A stretch of DNA of 39,960 nucleotides. Origin: a virus. The DNA lies in IMG/VR virus record IMGVR_UViG_3300020057_000076, positions 1 through 39,960 of that record; one strand, given 5' to 3'. The notes beneath the pieces were generated by a model that saw only the letters and a program-made list of their open reading frames with translations, was not told the DNA's origin and ran no database searches. Position numbers and translations under genes: made by a program. Below, in pieces: positions 6,585 through 39,960 of this stretch. Positions within the stretch are counted from its first letter, which is position 1. The number at the start of each line of letters is the position of its first letter.

Positions 6585-8314
6585 TATTCATTGTCCAGTT
6601 CAAGGTCACGGAATGTCACAGTAGGGCGGTGAAATTCCAACCCGATTCGCATTAAAGGGCCGTAGCGGTTCTTAGCCACATGCGCCAGTACTGCGGCCTT
6701 CTCGTCTTTTTCTTCCCCGGAAAGAACGGATAACAGGATAACGTGGGCGGATTCTTCTTCTATCGTGCCCGACTCTTTGAGGTCAGACATAGACGGCTCT
6801 GGCTCTTTTCCGTTTTTGTCTTTACCGAGGCGCCGGATTTGACTAAGGGCGAGCACGGGGCAGTCGAAGTCTCGGGCCACGTCCTTAAGGCCGCGTACGA
6901 AAGCCGAGACGTCGGCCCTGGCGTCGCCTGTGGAACCGCCGACGTGCTGGATGTGGTCAAAGATGATGAGTTGCGGCTTACTTTGTGCAGCATAATCTCG
7001 AATTTGGCCGAGACGAGGGCTTGTCTTATCACAGAGCCGCAGGTTTTCCCCGAAAGATTCAAGCGTAGAATATGCTTCTGTAAGGCGGTCGCGCTCCCCA
7101 TCAGTGTATTGCCCGTGTTTGCTAGACGCTGTGCTAACCCCCGATAGAATTGACACAAACCTACTAAGAATAGCGTCGGCAGACATCTCTGTAGTGCAGA
7201 ACAATACGCGCTTGCCTTGTTTACAAAGTTCACTAGCAATCTTAATGGCAATACTAGTTTTTCCAACTCCGGGCCTTGCTGCGATTGTCGAAATCTCGCC
7301 GCGTTTAAGCCTAACGTGTTCGTCGAGGAGTTTGAATCCTGTGGGGAATTCAGCACCCACAGGGGCTGAGAATAGGCGCTCCCTATGGTTCCGTAGAAAC
7401 CCCGCGGTATTGACGACGACGTCGAGGGGCTTGTCTGTGAGGTCTCGTAAACTTGTGACTCCTGGGGCGAATACCTTATTGATAAGTCGTTCTTGGTCTT
7501 TAACGTCCCCTTGCCGACCGATGGCATGGTGTTGAAGCGCCGCCAGGGTGTCGTCAGGCCCAAGGCCCGCCGTTTTATAATGAAAAGCAAGGGCGAAATC
7601 TGCCTCACTTCTCGACGGATAGATCGTTTTTTTGACAAGCTCTTTGCTCGACGGTAAAGTGACAGTCTGAGTTCCTGGAACTTGTTCAAGAACATCTTTG
7701 GAACTCCGTGGATTATTTGAAAGGTCAAGAAATCGGGAGTTTCGCCAACTTGCTTGATCCCCCTTACAGGAAAGGCTTCCCAGGAGCTTAACCATTCGCG
7801 CACTGTCGTATGTGTGGTCACAGATTATTTCCCCCTTACAATCAGAAAGCAGAGACCTTGCGTAGTTTTCAAGAGACACAAGTTTTTGCTCAATACTTTT
7901 ATACTCTGCAAATGGAACACAGAGTCCTGCAAACACAATGAGACATCCGTTACCCGAGATCCCGATATCTCCACAGCCAAGAGAAGAAACGAGCCTTCTA
8001 GCTCCGGCAATGACTCGTCCCACTTGAGCCTCACTGGCGGCTGTTCCTTTGGGGCGTACAGCGTCAAGGTCGAGAGAAACAGTGGTGATCCGAGAAACAG
8101 TGCCATCTGCGGCCCGTGGGTTTCGGCCAATAAACAAATTGCCTTTACCGTTAAATCGTTTAGCCCAAGTAACGACCTCTTCTTCGCCTTTTTTAATGGA
8201 ACGGTCGACGAACCCGCCCCCGTTGACGTTAATGCATCGGAGGTCGGAGAAATCATTGCTATGTTTGAGGAGCCCGTATAGTCGTCTAACGTGCTGTTCA
8301 TTAAATTGATCCAC
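6584..8314 (-). CDS. PrimPol-DnaB fused primase-helicase
   Basis: A 576-residue replication protein with two domains. The N-terminal 200 or so residues look like an archaeo-eukaryotic primase (PrimPol): TTVSLDLDA supplies the acidic pair Asp82/Asp84, ISGNGCLIVF (119-128) is the nucleotide-binding loop, and ICDHTYD follows at 164-170. Residues from about 320 form a DnaB/RecA-type helicase: Walker A ARPGVGKTS (346-354), Walker B LIIFDHIQ (Asp453), sensor LALSQIRR. It should prime and unwind at the fork, much as T7 gp4 does but with an AEP rather than a TOPRIM primase. GTG start; the short overlap with the nuclease gene implies coupling. Confidence 0.85.
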   Translation of the reverse strand: MDQFNEQHVRRLYGLLKHSNDFSDLRCINVNGGGFVDRSIKKGEEEVVTWAKRFNGKGNLFIGRNPRAADGTVSRITTVSLDLDAVRPKGTAASEAQVGRVIAGARRLVSSLGCGDIGISGNGCLIVFAGLCVPFAEYKSIEQKLVSLENYARSLLSDCKGEIICDHTYDSARMVKLLGSLSCKGDQASWRNSRFLDLSNNPRSSKDVLEQVPGTQTVTLPSSKELVKKTIYPSRSEADFALAFHYKTAGLGPDDTLAALQHHAIGRQGDVKDQERLINKVFAPGVTSLRDLTDKPLDVVVNTAGFLRNHRERLFSAPVGAEFPTGFKLLDEHVRLKRGEISTIAARPGVGKTSIAIKIASELCKQGKRVLFCTTEMSADAILSRFVSILSGVSTASSKHGQYTDGERDRLTEAYSTLESFGENLRLCDKTSPRLGQIRDYAAQSKPQLIIFDHIQHVGGSTGDARADVSAFVRGLKDVARDFDCPVLALSQIRRLGKDKNGKEPEPSMSDLKESGTIEEESAHVILLSVLSGEEKDEKAAVLAHVAKNRYGPLMRIGLEFHRPTVTFRDLELDNE

Positions 8315-17291: not shown

Positions 17292-17321
17292 TGAGGGGCA
17301 GATAAATTGAATGGGGGAAAC

Positions 17322-17573
17322 ATGGCAAACAACACGAACAGGGGCATGGTGGCGGTAGACGCTGAACTGCACCGATGGCTGAAAGAAACGGCGCTAAAAC
17401 TGAACACGTCGATTGCCGAGATGATTAAAAGGCACCAGGGCATGGGTCTGGACGAACTCCGGAATATGTTTGTAGGCCACAAACTAGCCCAGGAACTGGC
17501 CGAACTACGCCGGCAAAAACAGAAACTCGAGGCCCAAGAGAACCGGTTAAATGCGCTTATTAAGGGACGCTAA
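17322..17573 (+). CDS. Ribbon-helix-helix DNA-binding protein
   Basis: An 83-residue protein. GMVAVDAELHRWLKETALKL followed by NTSIAEMI is a clear ribbon-helix-helix (beta strand, two helices) as in Arc, MetJ and antitoxin or partition regulators. A C-terminal coiled coil (ELAELRRQKQKLEAQENRL) probably drives oligomerisation. GGGGGAAAC precedes the ATG at 17322. Placed alone, divergent from the early unit and beside several repeat arrays, it is the best candidate for a repressor or repeat-binding protein. No conventional CI-like repressor is seen elsewhere. Confidence 0.75.
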   Translation: MANNTNRGMVAVDAELHRWLKETALKLNTSIAEMIKRHQGMGLDELRNMFVGHKLAQELAELRRQKQKLEAQENRLNALIKGR

Positions 17574-18096: not shown

Positions 18097-18125
18097 TGTT
18101 AAGAGGCTGAGATAGAGAGAAAGGG

Positions 18126-18395
18126 GACGTTAGAGCCAACGCCGTTAACGACGTTAGAGTCAACGGCTTTAACGCCTTACGTCTTTTGGTACGTCGTTAG
18201 GGTCAACGCCGTTAACGTCGTTAACGTCAACGCCGTTAACGTCGTTAGGGTCAAAGACGTTAACGTCGTTAGAGTCAACGTCTTACGTCTTTTGGTACGT
18301 CGTTAGGGTCAACGCCGTTAACGTCGTTAGAGTCAAAGACGTTAAACAGCCGTTAGGGTCAACGCCGTTAAAGACGTTAGTACCAAAGCCCTTAT
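18126..18395 (+). repeat. Iteron-like 24-bp repeat array
   Basis: Ten head-to-tail units, nine nearly full and one truncated (18265-18279). The consensus begins GTCGTTAGGGTC and ends AACGCCGTTAAC. Unit starts are 18126, 18150, 18193, 18217, 18241, 18265, 18299, 18323, 18349 and 18373. Two copies of a 19-base insert ending TTACGTCTTTTGGTAC interrupt the array at 18174 and 18280, 106 bases apart, showing that a larger block was duplicated. Variation is confined to a few positions (GGG/GAG, CGCC/AGAC). It is noncoding, in the only large gap between the opposed units, and immediately upstream of RNase HI. A replication origin or a partition/regulator site are the main options. Confidence 0.85.
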
Positions 18396-18421: not shown

Positions 18422-18826
18422 ATGATTTATGTCTGGTCAGACGGTAGCAACACGAAAGCTCAAAAGACAAGGTGTGCAGTAATTATCAAAGACAATGCGC
18501 AGAACACGCTTTACAAAGAAGTCGTCGACGGGCCGACGGGATGGTGTGACGTTGCCGAGTATCAATCCGTCGTCAATGGTCTAGCCGCACTTCTCAATAT
18601 GGGATTAGAGCAGGAACAGATTTTATGGCGTAATGACGCCAGTTTTGTCATGGGACAGATGTCCGGGCAAATGAAAGTGCATACAAAAAGACAAGAAAGG
18701 CGTCCAAACTCATACTATCCGCTGTTTGAAGAAGCGCAAAGACTCGTAAAGAACTTTCGCTCTATTTGCTTTCAGTGGATTCCACGGGAACAAAATACGG
18801 AAGCGGATGCTCTCTCAAAACTATGA
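18422..18826 (+). CDS. Ribonuclease HI
   Basis: A 134-residue RNase H fold enzyme that cuts RNA in RNA-DNA hybrids. The catalytic carboxylates are all visible: WSDGS (Asp7), AEYQSVVNGL (Glu46), RNDASFVMG (Asp72) and EADALSK (Asp129). AAAAGGA lies 7 bases before the ATG. It is the first gene after the repeat array and overlaps the terminase small-subunit gene (ATGA), so it is expressed with packaging genes. It may remove primers or R-loops at the neighbouring candidate origin; that link is inferred from position. Confidence 0.88.
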   Translation: MIYVWSDGSNTKAQKTRCAVIIKDNAQNTLYKEVVDGPTGWCDVAEYQSVVNGLAALLNMGLEQEQILWRNDASFVMGQMSGQMKVHTKRQERRPNSYYPLFEEAQRLVKNFRSICFQWIPREQNTEADALSKL

Positions 18827-19314
18827 ACCAACAACTAAAGGCGCTAAAGTCTCTAAAGTCCCTTGCTTCTCACTCAGAGGCCGGATTAGGGCCTAGAGCA
18901 AGCGAAATACTACAATACGTGTTTGACCATCCGGAATGTACACAGAAGCAAGTCGCGGACGCAGTTGGCGTCTCTCGCCCTCGAGTAAGCTACATCATGG
19001 GGCATCCCAAAGTTCTGAAAGCATTTCCGATCCTAGCGCGCCGTAGAATGTCGGGCATGCTTCCGCAAGCTGTTAAACGATTTGAGAAGCTGATGAATCA
19101 GGATGAGAATCTAGAAGTGTCGCGAAAAGTTGTTGAGCAAATACTCAAAACAGAAGGCGTCATCGAGAACGTTCAGCACATCGAGGTCCGAAGCACGACG
19201 GAAATCAAAACGACTGAAGAACTCAAGCAGTTGATTGCAAAAGCACGGGACCTTCCGCCGTCGGTCATCGATGCTGAAATCATCGTCGATCAGGGGAATG
19301 AATCGAGGGGTTGA
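18823..19314 (+). CDS. Terminase small subunit-like protein
   Basis: A 163-residue protein with an N-terminal helix-turn-helix (CTQKQVADAVGVSRPRVSYI) and a helical C-terminus, upstream of TerL, the layout of phage small terminase subunits that recognise the packaging site. The ATG at 18823 overlaps the RNase H stop; a longer in-frame start at 18766 lies inside RNase H. Unusually, 0.7 kb including a noncoding gap separates it from TerL. A stand-alone transcription regulator is the alternative. Confidence 0.65.
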   Translation: MNQQLKALKSLKSLASHSEAGLGPRASEILQYVFDHPECTQKQVADAVGVSRPRVSYIMGHPKVLKAFPILARRRMSGMLPQAVKRFEKLMNQDENLEVSRKVVEQILKTEGVIENVQHIEVRSTTEIKTTEELKQLIAKARDLPPSVIDAEIIVDQGNESRG

Positions 19315-19772
19315 TGGATCGATGGATGGATGGACTGATGTTATTACCTGCAATCAAGTGTGTGCAAATGCGTTGAATTCTAGAGCTGTTATTGGTAGTA
19401 CAGGCGTATAAGGATGTGGGGCGCGCATCCTTTGCAGGGAAAGGACCTTCGACGGTGGGGTTACGTGTTACGATAGTCGCTACGACAGTTTGGGATTGAG
19501 TTCCGGGCAGCGGCCCGGCCGGTGTGCCCTCAGTTTGACCCGGCATCCCCCTTTTTGGGGGTGGGGTATGTGTTCTTGGACCCTACCACCTGCAAATTTT
19601 TTCTTCCAGACTTTGCACTTGACCCTCACCAACGCTTCTTAAACCCCAGTAGAAGGCCCTGTCCGTTCGATTTAAGGGCCCTATACCCGTCAAGTCGTAC
19701 ATTGCCACCCCTAAACGCTTAAAACGAATTTAAAGGGCCTTAACGGCCCTAAAGCCCCAAAGGAGTCGATAA
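19315..19772. other. Noncoding gap between TerS and TerL block
   Basis: About 460 bases with no convincing gene. It begins with GATG tetranucleotide repeats (19312-19340), then the TACGATAGT/TACGACAGT pair (19469-19489), a GC stem CCCCC-TTTTT-GGGGG (19547-19561) without a U-tract, and a hairpin AGGGCC-TTAAC-GGCCCT (19734-19750) just before the next ribosome site. As it lies between terminase genes it could hold the packaging (pac) site and a late promoter; neither is proven. Confidence 0.5.
19469..19489 (+). repeat. TACGAYAGT tandem pair
   Basis: TACGATAGT and TACGACAGT are 12 bases apart start to start, the same motif and spacing as the two pairs at 36806-36826 and 36960-36980. Probably a binding site for the same protein. 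Confidence 0.6.
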
Positions 19773-36379: not shown

Positions 36380-36695
36380 CCTTAGTCTCTACACCCTTGA
36401 GGATACGGTCAGGGAAGGCCCTAAGATCGCCGGCACGACCGCAATACCCGCCGGGACATACAAGGTTGTCATCTCTTATTCCCCCCGCTTTAAACGTAGG
36501 CTACCGCTGTTAATCGACGTACCGGGGTTTGAGTACGTACTCATCCACAGTGGTAATACAGAACGGGATACGAAAGGCTGTATTCTTGTCGGGCTTACCC
36601 AGGACGATGAGGGGGTTTACAGCTCTATAAAGGCAGAAGAGAAGTTAATGGCGTACCTAAAGGGTAAGTCTGATGTCCGTATTAGAATACTGTAG
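36312..36695 (+). CDS. DUF5675-family protein, no canonical start
   Basis: About 127 residues of the DUF5675 family. Visible family features: [57 protein letters not shown] and TKGCILVG. The conserved His and Cys (IHSGN...KGC) resemble the pair in YkuD L,D-transpeptidases, so a peptidoglycan activity is possible; this is an inference. The frame is closed by a TAG at 36270 and has no ATG, GTG or TTG. CTG at 36312 fits the family's N-terminus; ATT at 36291 lies 10 bases after AGAGAGG. A +1 shift from the zinc-ribbon frame is also possible. Confidence 0.7.
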
Positions 36696-36783
36696 GCATG
36701 AGTTTTTACTAGTGTGGGATGAGCCCCTTGGGCGACTATACATCTGTACGATATGTAGTCAACCAAAAGAGGTGCGGTTTTAA
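36673..36783 (+). CDS. Tiny zinc-knuckle protein
   Basis: A 36-residue protein ([20 protein letters not shown], then [16 protein letters not shown]). CRH and CTIC give a Cys-X-His ... Cys-X2-Cys zinc site. AAGGG precedes the ATG, and the gene overlaps the end of the DUF5675 gene by 23 bases. It is the last gene of the late unit. Confidence 0.6.
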
Positions 36784-36804
36784 GAGATGTTAAGGGGAAG
36801 TTCC

Positions 36805-36980
36805 TTACGACAGTCTGTACGACAGTTAATAAAGTCCCAGGACGTCTGTAAGGCGTAAAGCTGCCGCATCTTACATACAATGTAAGTTAATTACACGCTA
36901 TATTTGAGTCTTACATGTCCTTCGGAGGGAAAGGGCCTTCCGTCGATAGTCCTCCTTTTTACGACAGTTTTTACGACAGT
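36805..36980. other. attP: Candidate attP
   Basis: Two pairs of TACGACAGT (36806 and 36818; 36960 and 36972), each with a 12-base period, flank a 17-bp palindrome, CTTACATACAATGTAAG (36870-36886). The palindrome can be read as inverted 5-bp core sites around a 7-bp overlap (ATACAAT), and the pairs as arm-type sites, the layout of lambda-type attachment sites. A single arm motif also overlaps the integrase promoter. The attP role is inferred; a repressor operator is the alternative. Confidence 0.5.
36870..36886. promoter_or_regulatory. Perfect palindrome CTTACAT-ACA-ATGTAAG
   Basis: Seven-base arms are perfectly complementary around ACA. It lies nearly midway between the two TACGACAGT pairs and has no U-tract, so it is not a terminator. 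Core recombination site or operator. Confidence 0.55.
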
Positions 36981-37020
36981 TGAGTTTCTAATTTCTCGGC
37001 TAATATAGCATACATTAAAA

Positions 37021-37060
37021 AGCCCCTCTATCCATTAAAGGACGGAGGGGCTATTTTTTT
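37021..37060. terminator. Bidirectional intrinsic terminator
   Basis: AGCCCCTC (37021-37028) pairs with GAGGGGCT (37045-37052), with an inner TCC/GGA stem and loop ATTAAA. Seven T follow on the right, and five A precede on the left, giving U-tracts for both directions. It ends the late rightward unit and the early leftward unit where they meet. Confidence 0.9.
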
Positions 37061-37100
37061 GTTTGTCGGAAAGGCTACGCCCTAGTGTGGACGCAAAGCT

Positions 37101-37313
37101 TTAGTCTCCCTTCGTCTTGTGCCATGCTTGCAGGTTCACCACAAACGAGTCGTAATTAATCATCTCTCGTTCCAGGAGAATGTGGCAGGCGACTACTTTC
37201 TCAGCCGCTTCCAGCCGTCCGACAAGCGCCGGTAGTACGCAATCGTAAATCTCCCCGTTGGCGTCTAGTTCATCTTTTAGCTTCTTCAAGTCTTCATCTG
37301 TGAATGGGATCAT
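37101..37313 (-). CDS. Small coiled-coil protein
   Basis: A 70-residue acidic, helical protein (MIPFTDEDLKKLKDELDANG) with VGRLEAAEKVVA, a pattern common in short phage proteins. GGAG precedes the ATG, which overlaps the previous stop. It is the last gene of the leftward unit, 40 bases before the terminator. Function unknown. Confidence 0.65.
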   Translation of the reverse strand: MIPFTDEDLKKLKDELDANGEIYDCVLPALVGRLEAAEKVVACHILLEREMINYDSFVVNLQAWHKTKGD

Positions 37314-37846
37314 GGTTTCTCCTTTAATAAACTCACCCCATAGTTCAGGATTTTAAGGTGCATCTGTTGTTTGGCGTTGATGGCGGCGTTTGCTGCGGTG
37401 CGGGCGTAGACGTAATCGTAGGAGGCGCGGGAGTAGTCGTAGGAGGCGTAGGAGGCGTACCATGCGTAGTCGGCTGCGGGGTCGGCGGCGTAAGTGGATG
37501 ATGTGAAGCAGACGTAGGCAATGTAGGCGGCGGCTGCCCTTCTTGTCTTCTCCGTATCATTCACCAATACAGCCTTTGCAGCCTCAATAGCCTTGCGTGG
37601 CTCTAGTTCATTTGGATGTTTTGCCTCATAAATAGGTAGCACTTGCTCAGCTGAAAATATCTTATAGGCCAAGCACTGGTGTTTGGTCATCACGTGCATG
37701 ATGAGCCAATTTGCCCAGGCTAGTTTGTCGTTCTGAATCAGGTTTATCAGTCCGGCGACTGGCTCTGTAATTCCCTGAGCAAGAAACCATTCCGCGCCTT
37801 TGTCACAAGCGCCTCTATCTTCCAGCCATCTCCGATTGATGATCAT
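37310..37846 (-). CDS. Imm-5-like protein with Tyr/Ala repeats
   Basis: A 178-residue protein of the phage 'Imm-5-like' type: ACDKGAEWFLAQGI, LAWANWLIMHVM, CLAYKIFSAEQVLPIYEAKH and PRKAIEAAKAVL. Residues about 115-160 are a run of Tyr/Ala/Ser/Asp repeats (WYASYASYDYSRASYDYVYA) encoded by near-identical GCGTAGGAG-type steps on the + strand. The family is named after bacterial toxin-immunity proteins but has no proven role in phages. GGGAG lies 6 bases before the ATG. Confidence 0.65.
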   Translation of the reverse strand: MIINRRWLEDRGACDKGAEWFLAQGITEPVAGLINLIQNDKLAWANWLIMHVMTKHQCLAYKIFSAEQVLPIYEAKHPNELEPRKAIEAAKAVLVNDTEKTRRAAAAYIAYVCFTSSTYAADPAADYAWYASYASYDYSRASYDYVYARTAANAAINAKQQMHLKILNYGVSLLKEKP

Positions 37847-38055
37847 GTTACACTCCCTACTTTCGGTCTTCGCACCATAGAAGGGACAGACCACTTCGCA
37901 ATAGCGTCCTCTAGAAGGAAACTGAGAAGTTTGTTAAAGCTGATCTTGTACGCGCCGGCCATAGCGTGGCCCCCCAGAAGCACGTTGGGGTCTGCCGGAA
38001 CGAATAGATATCCCGGTTTAATTACCCTGACCTTTTTGCCTTCTTTGTTCGTCAT
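37843..38055 (-). CDS. Hypothetical protein
   Basis: A 70-residue basic protein (MTNKEGKKVRVIKPGYLFVP) with a helix (KISFNKLLSFLLEDAIAKW). It lies directly after the integrase and overlaps the next gene by 4 bases. A recombination directionality factor would be expected near an integrase and is often a small basic protein; this one is a weak candidate with no winged-helix signature. Confidence 0.5.
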   Translation of the reverse strand: MTNKEGKKVRVIKPGYLFVPADPNVLLGGHAMAGAYKISFNKLLSFLLEDAIAKWSVPSMVRRPKVGSVT

Positions 38056-39145: not shown

Positions 39146-39173
39146 AGTGTAGCAGGTTTACGACAGTTGTAAA
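39146..39173 (-). promoter_or_regulatory. Integrase promoter, leaderless geometry
   Basis: Reading leftward: TTTACA (39173-39168), 16 bases, TACACT (39151-39146) with an upstream TG extension (TGCTACACT). Six bases then separate it from the integrase ATG, so the predicted start is that A. The spacer contains ACTGTCGTA, the reverse of TACGACAGT (39159-39167). Confidence 0.65.
39159..39167 (+). promoter_or_regulatory. TACGACAGT motif in the integrase promoter
   Basis: A single copy of the motif that forms pairs at 19469, 36806 and 36960. It fills the spacer between -35 and -10, so a protein bound here would block integrase transcription. Confidence 0.5.
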
Positions 39174-39374: not shown

Positions 39375-39960
39375 ACTCTCCCAGGAAGGATGTAAGATTG
39401 TCGTAGGTGGTAGAACCTGTAAAGCCCTGCCACACGGTAACTTCCCGGTTCGGTTTGTAAAACACCGAAACAACACCGATGAGTTCGCCGACACTATCTA
39501 AGACCGGGCCGCCCGACGAACCTTGCGCAATAGGGGCACTCGTCACGAGCCGAAACTTTCCCCCCGCTACCATGCCCGTTGTGAAAACCTTATCAAAACC
39601 CGAAGGGAAACCGATGACGTACACGGTGTCACCAATGAGGGGTTGATTGCCGACGGACACGCAGGGAGACTGCATCTTTTTAATTGGCACCAATAGGGCT
39701 AAATCCTTTTTCTCGTCTACGGCAATGCGTACGTACTTATGTGCCACACCGTCAGCCGTAACAATCGTGGCAATTGGCGATAGATCGACAACGTGGGCAG
39801 CGGTAAGAACCGTCCCCCGTCTATTAATAAACACCCCGGTTCCTGACCCATCTACCGCCAATCGCTCGCCGTCGGGCTTAAACGAAACAACCTCAACTAC
39901 ACACCTGTTTGTGTGCGCATAAACCACCTGCGGCTGACGTGCGGCGTAATGCCCCTCGCC
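39346..39960 (-). CDS. Trypsin-like (HtrA-type) serine protease, main part
   Basis: The body of the protease that begins at 184-182 across the junction (221 aa in all; only bases 39827-39346 are unique to this end). The trypsin triad is complete: LTAAHVV (His73), KDLALL (Asp103) and AQGSSGGPV (Ser166). The fold ends soon after, with no PDZ domain, so it is smaller than DegP/HtrA. With its N-terminal signal segment it should act outside the cytoplasm or at the inner membrane. Such proteases are rare in phages; an envelope or host-defence target is possible. Confidence 0.88.
   Translation of the reverse strand, partial: GEGHYAARQPQVVYAHTNRCVVEVVSFKPDGERLAVDGSGTGVFINRRGTVLTAAHVVDLSPIATIVTADGVAHKYVRIAVDEKKDLALLVPIKKMQSPCVSVGNQPLIGDTVYVIGFPSGFDKVFTTGMVAGGKFRLVTSAPIAQGSSGGPVLDSVGELIGVVSVFYKPNREVTVWQGFTGSTTYDNLTSFLGEYEPLTSKQR
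39828..39960. repeat. Terminal overlap, right copy
   Basis: The right copy of the overlap with 1-133. Its left part (39828-39955) reads smoothly into the protease core; the last five bases (39956-39960) differ from the left copy at two positions and are probably read errors. Confidence 0.9.

Follow-up and report, generated by a model that had tools for sequence, protein, structure and literature searches.

A candidate attachment region flanked by paired direct repeats that recur at the terminase genes of an orphan environmental phage

Two tandem pairs of the short repeat TACGACAGT (R sites), each in direct orientation and with an exact period of 12 bases from start to start, flank a 134 bp interval at the point where the two long transcription units of an environmental virus genome converge. 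The leading interpretation of this gap, at 36.79-36.98 kb of the 39,960 nt stretch of DNA analysed here (the window), is that it constitutes the attP of a temperate podovirus, to which we assign a probability of approximately 0.4 from sequence comparisons. It is ranked first because the position and layout of the repeats agree with those of a P2-type attP, while a further copy at the int promoter agrees with integrase autoregulation. However, a conserved composite element, comprised of the same repeats preceded by a quasi-palindromic box (P box), is also found between the small and large terminase genes (terS and terL), and hence the repeats are not exclusive to the proposed attachment site. 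If the gap does act as an attP, an orphan environmental podovirus would become a testable temperate phage, with an att sequence that could be used to seek its host.

Genome organisation and relatives

The window is a virus contig that is circular as assembled, its ends (1-128 and 39828-39955) overlapping by 128 bp at 99% identity with one difference. Of the two long transcription units, that on the minus strand extends from ~17 kb, by way of the contig join, as far as 37.1 kb, and that on the plus strand occupies 18.4-36.8 kb; they converge at 36.8-37.1 kb beside a bidirectional terminator-like hairpin (Table 1). In tf, a phage of the LUZ24 group, two units likewise converge, with a bidirectional terminator (PMC3517423). 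Another member of this group, PaP3, has its attP inside a tRNA gene; no tRNA genes were found in the window. The TerL protein shares 28-29% identity with those of Arthrobacter phage Jasmine and podovirus ctEqG8, and additionally matches that of a LUZ24-like phage. The relatives of this kind that were found are limited to three short contigs, one (L002) being 99.9% identical and the others (L003 and L004) 68% identical in TerL, all of which cover the terminase side and end before reaching the int gap.

The two units diverge from an intergenic region (18120-18380) that is densely filled with direct and inverted repeats based on CGTTAACGTC and GTTAGGGTCAACG and that adjoins a gene for an Arc-like protein (17307-17573; phrog_3180). 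These repeats are a candidate origin or regulator array.

Table 1 Coordinates of repeats, boxes and associated features in the window
Feature	Position	Strand	Remarks
Small terminase-like HTH protein	18766..19314	+	phrog_2538, E 4.9e-7; HTH_24, Sigma70_r4; immediately upstream of third composite
Terminase-side P box AGGGAAAGGACCTTC	19436..19450	+	kept in L003 and L004
Terminase-side pair TACGATAGT / TACGACAGT	19469..19489 (19469/19481)	+	period 12
Left P box AGGGGAAGTTCCTT	36793..36806	+	starts 13 bp before left pair; exact AGGGRAAGNNCCTT match
Left pair of TACGACAGT (R sites)	36806..36826 (36806-36814, 36818-36826)	+	period 12
Palindrome CTTACATACAATGTAAG, candidate core of the initial annotation	36870..36886		perfect 7+3+7; not significant alone
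Right P box AGGGAAAGGGCCTTC	36926..36940	+	starts 34 bp before right pair; 14/15 identical to 19436 box
Right pair of TACGACAGT (R sites)	36960..36980 (36960-36968, 36972-36980)	+	period 12
Intrinsic terminator-like hairpin, bidirectional	37017..37056	both	z -4.55 (+), -4.57 (-); at convergent junction
Tyrosine integrase, 355 aa	38072..39139	-	PF00589, E 6.5e-9; phrog_1, E 1e-27
Single R site TTACGACAGTT (TACGACAGT copy at 39159)	39158..39168	+	overlaps predicted int promoter

Paired repeats in the convergent gap

Exact copies of TACGACAGT number seven in the window against an expectation of 0.27, a total reached in none of 100 shuffles, and TACGNNAGNNNNTACGNNAG occurs three times where 0.15 would be expected. 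One TACGACAGT copy, on the minus strand at 7802, falls within the helicase gene and is about what chance would give; the non-coding copies are all on the same strand. An initial annotation of this DNA had described pairs with an exact 12-base period either side of a palindrome, in the convergent gap 1.1 kb from int. Both the arrangement, in which the repeats are far above chance, and the location are borne out, there being 1.09 kb between the end of the right pair and the int stop codon. It had overlooked the boxes matching AGGGRAAGNNCCTT ahead of the pairs, the third pair on the terminase side and the single copy before int.

Given that the non-coding copies of this 9-mer are confined to a single strand, and that the phage has some LUZ24-like features, they could be localised single-strand nick sites, resembling the 9-mers found on one strand in tf, PaP3 and LUZ24. 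Yet the tf consensus, TACTRTGMC, is different, and no 12 bp tandem pairs with a preceding box are reported among its 14 sites (PMC3517423); on sequence and arrangement this explanation was placed last, and is highly improbable.

DNA searches with the gap among phages and plasmids returned nothing relevant. Scanning viral contigs for exact pairs gave four matches inside coding sequence (L005-L008), which were discarded as coincidences. In the contig of an unrelated phage (L009, 1172-1192), an intergenic TACGACAGTCGTTACGACAGT with TTAA on both flanks and no P box may also be due to chance.

Comparison with P2-type attachment sites

In P2-like phages, two arm sites of two direct repeats each flank the core, and attP lies downstream of int; in Smp131, int is followed by an 11-mer pair with a 12 bp period and, next to it, an inverted repeat (PMC3931495). 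The window resembles the attP of P2, 186 and Smp131 in that two arm regions of paired direct repeats flank a short interval, which lies where the late operon ends, downstream of the gene for a tyrosine integrase and next to a terminator-like inverted repeat, with the Smp131 period also being 12. By contrast, three genes separate int from the gap, each pair is associated with a P box, a third composite is situated at the terminase genes, and the core is a candidate only. The arm repeats of a P2-type attP would be confined to the attachment region and the control of int, whereas here they also occur at 19436-19489; for this reason the gap was not classified as a member of this type. The attachment site proposed in the initial annotation is partly supported: its pair-gap-pair layout, its location downstream of int in a convergent gap beside a terminator, and the associated site in the int promoter all fit, but it is weakened by the repeats at terS and terL, by a candidate core at chance frequency and by the failure to find an IHF-like site.

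The candidate core

A perfect 17 bp palindrome between the pairs had been put forward as the core, and is no more than a candidate for this role. Palindromes with 7 bp arms and spacers of 0-8 bp occur 16 times in the window, against ~22 expected by simple counting, and therefore CTTACATACAATGTAAG carries no weight by itself; for the 134 bp interval that separates the gap pairs, ~0.07 of this class would be expected. The palindrome is present as described, but at chance level genome-wide, leaving its function as a core unsupported. No IHF-like site with at most one mismatch was found at 36701-37100, which is a weak criterion as the host may lack IHF. Nor was there a tRNA or T-loop fragment within the gap, or any tRNA, tmRNA or Rfam feature that might serve as an attB mimic.

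The integrase and its predicted promoter

The integrase gene reads towards the gap, with three ORFs in between. If the gap is an attP, the two tandem TACGACAGT pairs would serve, in the manner of P2, as arm sites for the N-terminal part of the integrase, whose binding would bend the intervening 134 bp so that the catalytic part could reach a core located there, at which recombination would take place. The protein would also occupy the lone site within its own promoter, thereby turning down int expression. No arm-binding domain was recognised in the integrase: ~78 residues precede a weak SAM-like match (79-131, E 0.21), and the structure model, with a pLDDT of 32, is uninformative. Plasmid integrases match at only ~24-27%, and no relatives above weak similarity were detected in viral contigs, phages or 395 genomes of the phylum of G001.

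On the minus strand, the predicted int promoter comprises TTTACA (39173-39168) and TACACT (39151-39146), with TTACGACAGTT overlapping the 16 bp spacer and the edge of the -35 element. As promoter-like matches are common by chance, this overlap is suggestive only. KplE1 is a demonstrated case of autoregulation through sites at the integrase promoter, and P4 a reported one (PMC2951348). The putative integrase-binding site of the window likewise overlaps the int promoter, but unlike those of KplE1 intS and P4 int, this promoter is 2.2 kb from the gap and so does not overlap the proposed attachment region.

When genome contigs were scanned for prophages with the most conserved terminase stretch, a single weak match of 31 residues was obtained, and hence no prophage was found, nor any prophage junction or attB; these searches cover the reachable genomes, and their empty results say nothing about the true host.

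A composite element of box and paired repeat

Exact occurrences of AGGGRAAGNNCCTT in the window are confined to the three pair-associated places. Since the pattern was derived from those copies, shuffling provides a fair measure of their significance: for the left box, 12 to 19 of 20000 shuffled versions of the preceding 23 bp also matched; for the right box, none of 20000 shuffles reached its 14 of 15 identities with the box at 19436. A shared stretch, AGGGAAAGGRCCTTC, begins 34 bp ahead of the right gap pair and 33 bp ahead of that on the terminase side, with 14 of 15 positions identical, and overall 36918-36981 and 19428-19490 are 73% identical. The spacing from box to pair differs by 20-21 bp between the left box and the other two, which, at about two helical turns, would be compatible with binding on one face of the DNA. 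RNA hairpins in the composites were no better than those in shuffled sequence.

The terminase-side composite (19436-19489) is ~17 kb from the gap, between the small terminase-like gene, which is listed from its first TTG although an ATG near 18823 is the likelier start, and the genes for a holin-like protein and the large terminase. It is present in all three related contigs: the pair in L002 is identical to that of the window, L003 has AGGGAGAAGGCCTTC and the pair TACGACAGT/TCCGACAGT, and L004 has AGGGAGACGTTCTCC and TACGCTAGT, then a second TACG 12 bp further on. Between L004 and the window, 30 of 55 positions are equal, a level equalled by two of 5000 shuffles. This retention suggests that the terminase-side composite is probably old and selected. 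The copy weakens the case for TACGACAGT as an integrase arm site, and, as it is not attachment-specific, would be better explained by a dual regulator resembling Apl or by a small terminase. Paired repeats near an int gene should accordingly be compared with the rest of the genome before being named as arm sites.

The composite could instead be a cos- or pac-like packaging signal, with the 12-period pair as the binding site of the small terminase, the quasi-palindromic box as the cutting site of the large terminase, and the gap copies as extra or second recognition sites that possibly mark a short terminal repeat. The element is directly 3' of terS, with tandem repeats at 19469-19489, and both L003 and L004 retain it in an otherwise diverged region. 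The pac site of SPP1 similarly has direct repeats at the small terminase gene (PMC4737164), the TerL matches include a LUZ24-like phage, and tf, a relative of LUZ24, has 186 bp terminal repeats (PMC3517423). The SPP1 and SF6 pac sites share with the window both tandem repeats adjoining a small terminase gene and a nearby dyad, although in the window additional copies are found at int as well as in the convergent gap. Tandem small terminase sites with a dyad nearby are likewise found at the cosB of lambda. Nevertheless, two copies are 17 kb from terS and one site is in the int promoter, the circular assembly shows no fixed ends, and the DNA-binding domain of the SF6 small terminase has little sequence specificity, making this origin of the repeats quite unlikely.

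The non-coding sequence that follows the composite (19500-19750) is nearly identical in L003, with blocks such as ACCCGGCAT and GGACCCTA.CA.CTG retained in L004 and the hairpin CCCCCTTTTTGGGGG inside; it is possibly a packaging site or a late leader. Beyond the known loci, searches with this conserved block yielded only a coding coincidence (L024, L026).

Possible operators of a phage regulator

Alternatively, TACGACAGT could be an operator at which a phage regulator acts, whether a repressor or a dual excisionase and regulator of the Apl or Cox kind; this too would account for one motif being common to the terminase junction, the convergent gap and the int promoter. Such a protein would bind head to tail at the int promoter, the terS-terL junction and the end of the late operon, controlling transcription and, if the gap is an attP, possibly excision. 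Direct repeats spaced by one helix turn are the targets of the Apl protein of phage 186, in attP as well as in a distant promoter region (PMC7498355), and the operators of Apl and of P2 Cox are comparable to the repeats at the proposed attachment site and a distant, putatively regulatory place. Within the window, the Arc-like protein is a potential regulator. However, the period is 12, rather than 10-11 as for Apl, which requires about three adjacent operators where the sites here are paired, with a single copy at the int promoter, and no homologous protein was recognised. Neither was a repressor gene recognised in the window, and promoter-like sequence was absent from the 19.2-20.1 kb scanned, with one weak candidate by the gap. 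L5-type stoperators are, in the same way, short, asymmetric, intergenic and in one orientation, but number more than 20 in L5, whereas the seven exact copies here, mostly paired and accompanied by a P box, fall short of the at least 20 sites that distinguish this class. Overall, a regulator of this kind is a somewhat less likely alternative to the attP.

It may further be envisaged that one phage DNA-binding protein uses the box and 12 bp-period pair as a composite operator at both the gap and the terS-terL junction, with a single site at the int promoter, coupling the control of integration to packaging or late functions. This appears unlikely; if a single protein did own every site, one control element would serve integration together with packaging or late functions, an unusual arrangement.

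Genes adjacent to the gap

On the plus strand, 36380-36696 is a frame without an ATG, GTG or TTG start in the ORF list, containing the motifs ...IHSGNT...GCILVG and having distant viral protein matches at ~40-45%; it resembles what we take to be DUF5675-type phage proteins. A chimeric query constructed from the genes flanking the gap matched only distant DUF5675-like proteins and was rejected. In the int operon, the gene at 37310-37894 has a weak match to an Imm5-like immunity protein and a strong match to phrog_38757, a family of unknown function.
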